Shown here: in pieces, positions 31,398-34,327 of the stretch
Position numbering within the stretch: position 1 is the stretch's first letter
How the letters are laid out: the number at the start of each line of letters is the position of its first letter
Position numbers and translations under genes: made by a program
NCBI GenBank assembly: GCA_002839375.1
Contig: PGXY01000005.1
Coordinates: 62,001 to 126,000 of the forward strand
Length of the DNA: 64,000 nucleotides
Source of the DNA: Spirochaetae bacterium HGW-Spirochaetae-1
GTDB lineage: Bacteria; Spirochaetota; UBA4802; UBA5550
Direction: 5' to 3'
Notes under the pieces: generated by a model
Database searches by the model: none
What the model was told of the DNA's origin: nothing
What the model saw: only the letters and a program-made list of their open reading frames with translations

Positions 31398-33116
31398 TTA
31401 CGCCCTTTTCCTCTCCAGAAAAACTGAAGAAACAGGATGGTGTTCGGGCAGATATTCGGGCATACAAATCTCCTGAAGGGGGATATCATTCCCCTTTACC
31501 GGAGCCGCATGGAGCACATGACCATAAGAAATCCACTGCGGAACATCGAGCTTTTTCCCCCCGGGATGGTTCCATGTTTTGTACCAGAAGATGTCGTTGA
31601 CGGACTTGCGCTGCTCCATGGCCTGCACCTCGGCTATCATGGCATCGCTCTCACTCTTGGCGGCCAGGGCCACCACGGCGATGAGCTTGTTCGTTTCAGG
31701 GAGCTCCGGAGCCAGTATATCCCAGAAACCATGTCCCCAGCCTCGCTCCAGCTGCTCAACGGAATCATTACATTCGGCCGAATGGATGGGGCCGGTAAGA
31801 CAGAAGGCGCCGTAACGCATGTCTTCTCCGCGGGGTATATCCGTGGTGCCGTCGAGGTGGATGGAATTCAGGCCGGCCTGGATCGCCTCGCCGATGGAAT
31901 GCTCAGTCATATCAACGGGCCTGCCGAGACGCTTCGCTTCCTCCATGTTGATATAGATGAATATCATTTTATGGGCGTCCTCCCGGGGCTTCAGGACTTT
32001 TTTGCCCATGGCAACCACCATGTGGGCCAGGTTGGTATAATCCTCCAGCGTGGCCTGGATCATGCCCTCACTGAAATTGCTTTCATAGGCCCTGATCATG
32101 TCATCATAGGTTTTTGAAAGGCCCGTATCGATACGCTCCCTGATACGGTCCAGGATTTTCTTTCCTTCATCGTCGCCGCCGTTCACCACAATGGTCTTCA
32201 CCATATCACCGACGCCGTTTTTCACCAGCTCGCCGTTGAAACTCCTGAGAAAATTAAACATTACCGCGGGTTGGACGGACCGGGAAAAATCCACGTTCCT
32301 CCGCTCGCTTTTGCGCTCGATGATCTTGGCAGCGGCAATATCCATATGCTTCTTTTTAAATTCCACACGGTCCTGCTGCTGCTTGAACCCGATCTGGATT
32401 ATGGAAGCGATCTTTCCATTGGGATTCATGCCGGGAAGGAGAAGCATCCTTTTCAGCCTGTCATAACCTTTACTGTTAGCGCCGTTGATGAGCTCTGCGC
32501 CCAGGCTGTGGCGGATGATATTAACTCCAACAGCGCCTCCCAGCACCGATCCGATGGCCGCCTTGATATTATGCTCAAAGGTCCCCATGTCGATCTGTTC
32601 AAGACTGAGCATGCTGGGCGGTATGGGCATCCTCCTGAACCGCAGCATGTCCATGAAGGGGCCGCCGTATCCCGTGTTCATGAGAACTACCGTGGCAAAG
32701 GCATTGTCAACGAAGCGCTCTTCACCGCTCATCTCGCTGAACTCATCGATAATCTCCCGCATGTTGCCGTTAAAGGTCCAGTCGAAGTACATGCCCTCCC
32801 AGTGCTGCGAATAAGTAGCGTTTGTCGCCTTGAGCCCGCAGGCCAGGACCTGGGCCAGGCGGTGCTTGTCGGGCACATCGGTGATTTCAAAAGGAGTGAA
32901 ATCCTGGCCATAATAATGACTTGACTTCCAGATTCGCCTGATTACCATGTTTTCGCGATGACTTACTGAAAGAGGGTACAGAAGAAACGGCACCTGGCAT
33001 GTGCCGGGATGTTCACGGGGAACCCACTGTGACCGGTGAACATCCGCTGTACCTTCCACTCCGATCCTTCTCCCCTTTTCATTACCCAGAACTTTTGACT
33101 TTTCAAAAGTCTCCAT
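31398..33116 (-). CDS. Unrecognised 572-residue protein downstream of TetR
   Basis: A cytoplasmic protein of about 572 residues with no signal peptide. The start at 33116 (METFEKSKV) follows GGAGG; the frame extends 63 bases further upstream without a site. Residues 20-60 contain TADVHRSQWVPREHPGTCQVPF, a His-rich, possibly metal-related stretch; residues 190-215 (GSVLGGAVGVNIIRHSLGAELI) are hydrophobic and could form a membrane-associated helix pair. The C-terminal half alternates helices and strands (HKMIFIYINMEEAKRL, IDTGLSKTYDDMIRAYE) with many Trp near the end. I recognise no family. An extended TetR gene lies just upstream on the same strand, so the protein is likely its regulatory target. 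Confidence 0.7.
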   Translation of the reverse strand: METFEKSKVLGNEKGRRIGVEGTADVHRSQWVPREHPGTCQVPFLLYPLSVSHRENMVIRRIWKSSHYYGQDFTPFEITDVPDKHRLAQVLACGLKATNATYSQHWEGMYFDWTFNGNMREIIDEFSEMSGEERFVDNAFATVVLMNTGYGGPFMDMLRFRRMPIPPSMLSLEQIDMGTFEHNIKAAIGSVLGGAVGVNIIRHSLGAELINGANSKGYDRLKRMLLLPGMNPNGKIASIIQIGFKQQQDRVEFKKKHMDIAAAKIIERKSERRNVDFSRSVQPAVMFNFLRSFNGELVKNGVGDMVKTIVVNGGDDEGKKILDRIRERIDTGLSKTYDDMIRAYESNFSEGMIQATLEDYTNLAHMVVAMGKKVLKPREDAHKMIFIYINMEEAKRLGRPVDMTEHSIGEAIQAGLNSIHLDGTTDIPRGEDMRYGAFCLTGPIHSAECNDSVEQLERGWGHGFWDILAPELPETNKLIAVVALAAKSESDAMIAEVQAMEQRKSVNDIFWYKTWNHPGGKKLDVPQWISYGHVLHAAPVKGNDIPLQEICMPEYLPEHHPVSSVFLERKRA

Positions 33117-33212
33117 ACATAAACCTCCAATTTTAATAATTTCATATAGCATTCCTGGAACTCCTGTGGCCCCCGGCAAATGTATATGTTCGCTAGCTTT
33201 AATTATTTACTG

Positions 33213-33282
33213 CCACCCCCACCGGGGGTTTATATATTTTTCTGTCTCCCAAAGTCCCCCTCCGGGGGATTTAGGGGGCTTT
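33213..33282. repeat. C/G-run inverted repeats between TetR and its downstream gene
   Basis: Two hairpins: CCCCC-ACC-GGGGG (33216-33228) and AAAGTCCCCC-TCC-GGGGGATTT followed by AGGGGGCTTT (33251-33282). This CCCCCTAAATCCCCC-type element recurs in many unrelated bacterial genomes. The last codons and stop of the TetR gene (Lys-Ala-Pro-stop) are read from it. Confidence 0.6.
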
Positions 33283-34236
33283 GTCCTTCACGAATCCCCG
33301 GAAAAGAACCTCCAGTATCTCCGGTATCTCATCGCGGAGATCATAATTCATGCCGCTCTTAAACCACTTGATAACTACACCGTCGATATATCCCAGGACG
33401 CCGTAAAACACCGTGTAGAAGTTGATGGTCTTCAGCATATTCTTCCGGTTCATGGACACGATATGCTCCTTGAACATGGGCAGGCTCGAGGTGAGATGGT
33501 AATAGAACACCACCTTGTTTCCCGTGCCCTGCGAATTGGACTCGGTCTGGATGAGAAGATAGATCACGGGATTACGCGAGATGTAATCCACCCAGAACTC
33601 GATCATCTCGCGGATCTGTTCAAGGATATTGATGCTCCGTGAATTGATCTCATTAATGGCTCTTACAATTTCCCCGTAATGTTCATCGAGAAGCTGCTCC
33701 ATGAGCTCTTCCTTGTTGTTGAACATGCGATACACCGAGGCCTTGCCGATGCCCGCTCCCTGGGCGATGCGGTCCATGGTGGCCCTGCGGAAGCCCTCCT
33801 TTTCGAAAACGTCCAGGGCGGCGCGGAAAATTTTATCTTTTTTTTCATCCCGCGTGGGACGCTCCTTTTCAGCCTCAACATTTTCGGGAAAGGGCGATGA
33901 TAGAAAAAAATCAAGATGCTCCGGCGACAGGGAGAGATTTTTGAGTCCGAGACGTTTTGTCTCCGCCACTGCCGCCCTGAAGACAAGCCAGGCCGACCGG
34001 GGCATGTCCTTCTCCAGCAGGTATGCCAGTATTTCCGTAAGATAACAGGAAAGGCGCTCATGGAAGGACCGGTCTCCGTCCTTACCGTCCCTGTCGCGCC
34101 CGGGGGGAATCATTTCGCCCAGGTTCTTCCTGAATATCCTCTCGTCGAAACTCCCGTCGGCGGTAAAATATTTGCCTATCTCCGTATAGAGAGGTATCCT
34201 GTTGCCTGGTTTTTTTTCTTCGGTCTTTTTTGCCAT
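33271..34236 (-). CDS. TetR family regulator with long N-terminal extension
   Basis: A 321-residue protein. The TetR HTH lies unusually far in, at about residues 130-175: KKDKIFRAALDVFEKEGFRRATMDRIAQGAGIGKASVYRMFNNKEELM. Before it are about 125 residues with helical segments (SFHERLSCYLTEILAYLLEKDMPRSAWLVFRAAVAETKRLG) that do not belong to ordinary TetR proteins. After it is a normal ligand-binding domain. ATG at 34236 is preferred over one 14 codons upstream; GGCGGGA lies before it. A partial palindrome at 34282-34299 overlaps the promoter, suggesting autoregulation. It is encoded just before the 572-residue unknown. Confidence 0.85.
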   Translation of the reverse strand: MAKKTEEKKPGNRIPLYTEIGKYFTADGSFDERIFRKNLGEMIPPGRDRDGKDGDRSFHERLSCYLTEILAYLLEKDMPRSAWLVFRAAVAETKRLGLKNLSLSPEHLDFFLSSPFPENVEAEKERPTRDEKKDKIFRAALDVFEKEGFRRATMDRIAQGAGIGKASVYRMFNNKEELMEQLLDEHYGEIVRAINEINSRSINILEQIREMIEFWVDYISRNPVIYLLIQTESNSQGTGNKVVFYYHLTSSLPMFKEHIVSMNRKNMLKTINFYTVFYGVLGYIDGVVIKWFKSGMNYDLRDEIPEILEVLFRGFVKDKAP

Positions 34237-34281
34237 ATCTGTGTCCCGCCTTTTACCTGCAAATTTCATACACTGCATACC

Positions 34282-34327
34282 GGACGTACTGGTCCGTCCG
34301 TTTACTTTACATGCATAAAAATGTCAA
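34282..34327 (-). promoter_or_regulatory. Promoter and imperfect palindrome upstream of the extended TetR gene
   Basis: TTGACA (34322-34327, minus strand) is followed after 17 bases by TAAACG as a weak -10. The palindrome GGACGTACTGGTCCGTCC (34282-34299), symmetric as GGACGnACnnGTnCGTCC, touches the -10. The position fits a repressor site. Confidence 0.6.

Follow-up and report, generated by a model that had tools for sequence, protein, structure and literature searches.

The flavin site of nitroreductases is formed by an RRSxR motif from one subunit and an APSxxN motif from the other. Substrate and flavin are bound between the two monomers, and a few members of the superfamily show gene duplication and fusion (PMC6017928). 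The locus described here, located in a 64,000-nucleotide stretch of DNA (the window), pairs a protein that may be related to that superfamily with a regulator of the TetR family. A helix-turn-helix (HTH) near the N-terminus, usual though not defining for TetR regulators, is absent here and throughout the subfamily to which this repressor belongs, while a palindromic operator at the own promoter is present as a predicted site (34282-34299) and is kept across the subfamily. We propose that the locus is a two-gene autorepressed cassette whose second product, a protein of 572 residues (P572), is a diverged fused-dimer flavin oxidoreductase, perhaps acyl- or lipid-related, a proposal to which we give about an even chance.

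Both genes are read from the minus strand, in the order promoter, palindrome, TetR gene, 154-bp interval, P572 gene and terminator, and both reading frames are located where the first-pass annotation had placed them: P572 at 31398-33116(-) and the longest TetR frame at 33271-34278(-), with 335 residues counted from the first ATG. Since the ATG at 34278 is just 3 bases beyond the palindrome, the alternative ATG at 34236, from which the protein reads MAKKTEEK, is the likelier start and gives a repressor of 321 residues (33271-34236, minus strand). The promoter, read from the sequence, consists of a −35 TTGACA (34322-34327, minus strand) and, at a spacing of 17, a weak −10-like TAAACG (34299-34304, minus strand), the poor −10 being the reason why it was not listed in a sigma-70 scan. 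The intrinsic terminator past P572 (31344-31365, minus strand) has a 9-bp stem with seven GC pairs and a T run; beyond it, a MarR-like gene and a glutathione peroxidase-like gene occupy the opposite strand and converge on the operon, so that the transcription unit is bounded to the TetR gene followed by P572. Two short GC-rich hairpins, CCCCCGGTGGGGG and CCCCCGGAGGGGG, are found between the two genes (33215-33268), and their folding was not better than that of shuffles (z −1.26). No known RNA elements were detected within the 64-kb window, and a plasmid origin was rejected for lack of any plasmid match. What is solid in this analysis is the operon, its operator and the existence of the TetR subfamily.

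The PF00440 TetR_N match (E 7e-14, 51.7 bits, cut-off 24) spans only residues 150-195 of 335 (33694-33831, minus strand), and hence the additional stretch at the N-terminus does exist; the earlier remark that the HTH is far from the N-terminus was accurate, the domain beginning ~135 residues in when counted from the 321-residue start. That region (33832-34236, minus strand; ~135 residues with its linker) is conserved in 18 aligned subfamily members and aligns throughout, with the consensus YAExGxYFxPDGxFDExxFR...WLSSYLxxIxxYLxEKGM. The first-pass annotation recognized the extension correctly and called an HTH so placed rare in TetR proteins; its bearer is no one-off, being one member of a TetR subfamily that the extension, a conserved helical domain, marks out. 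No model in Pfam or NCBIfam matches the extension, its best PDB matches are designed or unrelated helical proteins, and literature searches for a TetR protein with such an extension found none. The C-terminal region (33274-33693, minus strand), the part for effector and dimerization, is closest among named models to FadR, under its cut-off; the nearest named NCBIfam TetR models are FadR, MtrR and FasR, and the curated cut-offs are missed for both FadR (68.7 bits vs 200) and FasR (52.1 vs 330). A search with the P572-linked TetRs retrieved relatives in 18 genomes of the same order, including a second gene of the genome from which the window comes (the own genome). More distant TetRs of ~300-330 residues, carrying other N-terminal extensions, occur in a second phylum. 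At L124, L130 and L133, where TetRs of ~300-330 residues also bear a different N-terminal extension, the gene that follows is similar to the NMO-like beginning of the ketosynthase-nitronate monooxygenase (NMO) proteins that adjoin extended TetRs.

The palindrome GGACGGACCAGTACGTCC (minus-strand reading; 34282-34299) overlaps the operon promoter, as had been claimed for it, and matches 17/18 positions of GGACkGACyrGTCmGTCC, the operator consensus of the subfamily, which is found ahead of the operon in 20 of the 27 members examined. When GGACNNACYRGTNNGTCC was searched at ≤2 mismatches, 34282-34299 was the sole match in the window (chance mean 0.35). At least 16 of the 18 positions are matched in 18/27 loci (window, L004, L006-L008, L012, L036, L037, L040-L047, L076, L077) and 14-15 in L003 and L005, against a shuffled-sequence background of 0.085 sites with at least 14 positions per 10 kb. 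A convincing operator was absent at the subfamily loci L035, L038, L039 and L048-L051. The arrangement TTGACA, 17 nucleotides, −10 element and palindrome recurs ahead of the TetR gene in L004-L008, and a similar one in L076 and L077. Lying directly after the −10 in several loci, the palindrome sits where a repressor would be expected. The operator of L044 and L045 precedes the first gene of a dehydratase operon, with the TetR gene coming further along in that operon. This recurrence at the equivalent place in other genomes, together with the bounded transcription unit, supports the earlier suggestion that the TetR and P572 are self-controlled.

In 9 of the 12 distinct P572 loci (L009 and L002 being one place) an extended TetR is encoded immediately upstream and in the same orientation. 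These are the window, L003-L008, L061/L076 and L062/L077. The P572 loci span Spirochaetes and 'Deltaproteobacteria' MAGs. In the three others (L002, L063 and L064) both the adjacent TetR and the operator are absent; the genome of L002 carries an extended TetR at another place, next to a ketosynthase-NMO gene, and L063 and L064 are second copies in genomes that hold a paired copy (L007 and L004, respectively). Since such second copies lack TetR and operator, P572 may function outside TetR control too. The protein is rare, being present in 3 of the 393 genomes sampled from its own phylum (3/46 in its own order; G154, of the same family as the own genome, carries it) and in 5/395 and 5/297 genomes of two overlapping samples of another phylum. 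A profile search of the 395-genome sample found the full-type extended TetR in seven genomes, truncated by the end of the contig in one case, and all five P572 genomes are included in these seven (hypergeometric 3e-10, uncorrected for kinship). At L119, a subfamily TetR cut by the contig end precedes a gene that by eye resembles a glycyl radical enzyme. In the own phylum the three P572 genomes fall among the 18/247 with the TetR, a figure that says little alone because all 18 belong to one order. Taken together, gene order and occurrence point to a pairing of more than chance, as the first-pass annotation expected. In a weakly resolved tree the P572-linked TetRs sit at three separate places and not in one clade; the pairing is therefore an old one in which partners were exchanged, or else it has multiple origins.

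Sister TetRs of the subfamily adjoin genes of acyl-CoA and lipid metabolism: a glycerol-3-phosphate acyltransferase (GPAT) with a PlsC-type acyltransferase (Pfam match at L012, resemblance at L036 and L040), ketosynthase-nitronate monooxygenase proteins (Pfam match at L037, resemblance at L042, L046 and L047), the 2-hydroxyglutaryl-CoA dehydratase D-component HGD-D (Pfam match at L044, resemblance at L045) and acyl-CoA dehydrogenase (Pfam match at L049, resemblance at L050 and L051). It is for this reason that an acyl-CoA or lipid effector is proposed, an assignment that is association, not proof. In the own genome, an exact palindrome at L012:5114-5131 (C2:481113-481130) is flanked by a divergent PlsC-type acyltransferase/GPAT pair on one side and the second extended-TetR gene on the other, suggesting local control over phospholipid synthesis.

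P572 itself gave no credible match to Pfam, NCBIfam or the PDB in single-sequence or profile searches, which bears out, at the level of sequence, the earlier statement that it belongs to no recognized family. Its members are 53-63% identical across Spirochaetes and 'Deltaproteobacteria' MAGs, with 185/572 positions invariant in 12 sequences. The start, described in the first pass as His-rich, carries instead an invariant HxSQW...HPG motif (H27, H36). The middle had been called hydrophobic; it is not membrane-like, and a membrane protein was rejected as there is no hydrophobic stretch (highest 19-residue Kyte-Doolittle mean 1.39). A likeness of 'FWDILAPELPETNKLIAVVAL' to the formaldehyde-activating enzyme (Fae), noticed by eye, was dropped when the models pointed elsewhere.

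Structure prediction of P572, which had been recommended as a check, gave poor models that point to one superfamily: AlphaFold models built from 8 and then 12 sequences, two runs that are not independent because most sequences are common to both, had mean pLDDT values of 49.5 and 54.0, and FMN nitroreductase-superfamily proteins accounted for 47/50 and 50/50 of the first matches of these low-confidence models in the PDB. The matches include B. fragilis 3ek3, NfsB, iodotyrosine deiodinase (IYD) 4ttb and FbiB, and in the first run also 3eo7, a nitroreductase of 487 residues. Most Foldseek probabilities exceeded 0.85, yet E-values were no better than 0.002, none falling below 0.001, and target TM-scores reached at most ~0.57. 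A viral structure library gave no useful match. In the models, residues 53-250 (32367-32960, minus strand), the proposed first half, follow the nitroreductase order helix-helix-strand-helix-strand-helix-long helix-strand-helix-strand, and residues 255-487 (31656-32354, minus strand), the putative second half, repeat much of it. The first half bears the invariant ATYSQHW, the second the invariant ERKSERRN and GLNSxHLDGTT. The best profile alignments land on corresponding motifs, KATNATYSQHW against APSAGNMQPW and RKSER against RRSIR, with scores not above those of column shuffles, and the local alignments of FEITDVPDKHRLAQVLACGLKATNATYSQHW with FKKEPLPDSMIRRILEAGRFAPSAGNMQPW and of IIERKSERRN with IMERRSIRSF are equally weak by that measure. 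No P572 member scanned matched PF00881 or another Pfam or NCBIfam nitroreductase model, and the two halves have no significant alignment to each other that would disclose an internal repeat. Conservation, on the other hand, is complementary: the proposed site segments are invariant at 12/16 (RKSER, half 2) and 14/20 (ATYSQHW, half 1) positions, their counterparts in the opposite halves at 4/14 and 2/21, which suggests a single composite flavin site made of RKSER from half 2 and ATYSQHW from half 1. The models, the element order, the motif positions and the conservation make a tandem of two nitroreductase folds probable for P572. As profile-profile comparison fails to confirm it, membership is not claimed; the nitroreductase reading is the best available, and P572 is likened to, yet not filed as, a nitroreductase.

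The sequences show directly the anatomy of the genes, the conserved palindrome, the adjacency, the co-occurrence and the terminator; repression, effector class, fold, flavin and reaction are what we infer. In the model, the TetR with its added N-terminal helical domain would bind the 18-bp palindrome over the promoter, repressing its own gene and the P572 gene behind it. Once the C-terminal pocket of the TetR is filled by its effector, for which an acyl-CoA or a related metabolite is the likeliest candidate, P572 would be made. P572, most likely a diverged tandem (fused-dimer) nitroreductase-fold protein whose single FMN-type site combines RKSER of half 2 with ATYSQHW of half 1, would then act as an oxidoreductase on the effector metabolite.

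The fold of P572 may be a different one. A generic helix-strand likeness in a bad model might have drawn the nitroreductase matches, in which case P572 would represent a new enzyme family, unrelated to nitroreductases and governed by this repressor all the same, a possibility that we consider doubtful, though substantial. It agrees with the low pLDDT, the lack of E-values below 0.001 and the profiles indistinguishable from shuffles, as well as with the HxSQW..HPG start and the conserved tail (RKSVNxxFWYxTWNHPxGK, residues 488-572; 31401-31655, minus strand), which have no evident nitroreductase counterpart. Against it, nearly all PDB matches of both runs come from one superfamily and not from a mix, and element order, motif registers and complementary conservation all fit a nitroreductase.

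Two other explanations concern what the repressor senses and what it serves. TetR-controlled flavin reductases often serve detoxification roles, and it is conceivable, if rather unlikely, that the TetR senses a quinone, a nitro compound or another electrophile which P572 reduces, in place of a lipid metabolite; the convergent glutathione peroxidase-like and MarR-like genes would suit such a cassette, yet they lie on the other strand and are not seen at other P572 loci, and the sister regulators point towards acyl-CoA and lipid genes. That P572 is a mere passenger, placed by chance beside a lipid regulator with its main targets elsewhere, seems to us improbable. The variety of genes that adjoin subfamily TetRs, the scatter of the P572-linked TetRs over the tree and the three loci without an adjacent TetR speak for it; the order and strand kept in 9/12 loci across Spirochaetes and Deltaproteobacteria MAGs speak against. 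Moreover, the own genome has only two exact operators, one at each of its two extended-TetR genes, so that no wider regulon is visible there, and matches at ≤1 mismatch equalled those of a backwards control.

The autorepressed cassette with a diverged fused-dimer oxidoreductase is the preferred reading. The first-pass proposal of a candidate new regulated function is too strong in its present form, because the fold evidence points to the nitroreductase superfamily and the sister TetRs adjoin ordinary lipid and acyl-CoA genes. Neither the extension nor the P572 family is described in the libraries searched. A wider reading, whose chances we put a little short of even, is that P572 founds a family of single-chain flavoenzymes with a composite site, or a new fold, and that the extension is a new sensory or oligomerization domain defining a subfamily of lipid regulators in Spirochaetes and Deltaproteobacteria. 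If the preferred reading is right, the nitroreductase superfamily would gain a fused-dimer branch hidden from sequence search, and, repressor and operator being given together, the function of P572 could be approached through what lifts the repression. The N-terminal domain and the uniform operator define a regulator subfamily in poorly studied bacteria, and the genes found beside its members suggest that acyl-CoA and lipid genes are controlled locally.

Compared with known systems, the HTH and C-terminal part of the repressor have among their best NCBIfam resemblances the acyl-CoA regulators FadR of Bacillus and FasR of Mycobacterium, from which the protein differs in remaining far under the curated cut-offs and in adding the N-terminal helical domain. 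P572 finds its top fold matches in the nitroreductase superfamily (PF00881; NfsB, iodotyrosine deiodinase, FbiB C-terminal domain), which it resembles in its predicted element order and in having RRSxR-like and APSxxNxQPW-like motifs at the expected places; it differs in the lack of a detectable sequence match, in the two halves per chain, and in the extra 50-residue start and 85-residue tail. The Acg/FDO subgroup, compared here by description, is like P572 in that a single chain mimics the dimer and one flavin site is proposed, whereas its proteins are shorter (TyzC, 372 residues) and are recognized nitroreductases, P572 having 572 residues and lying beyond sequence detection.
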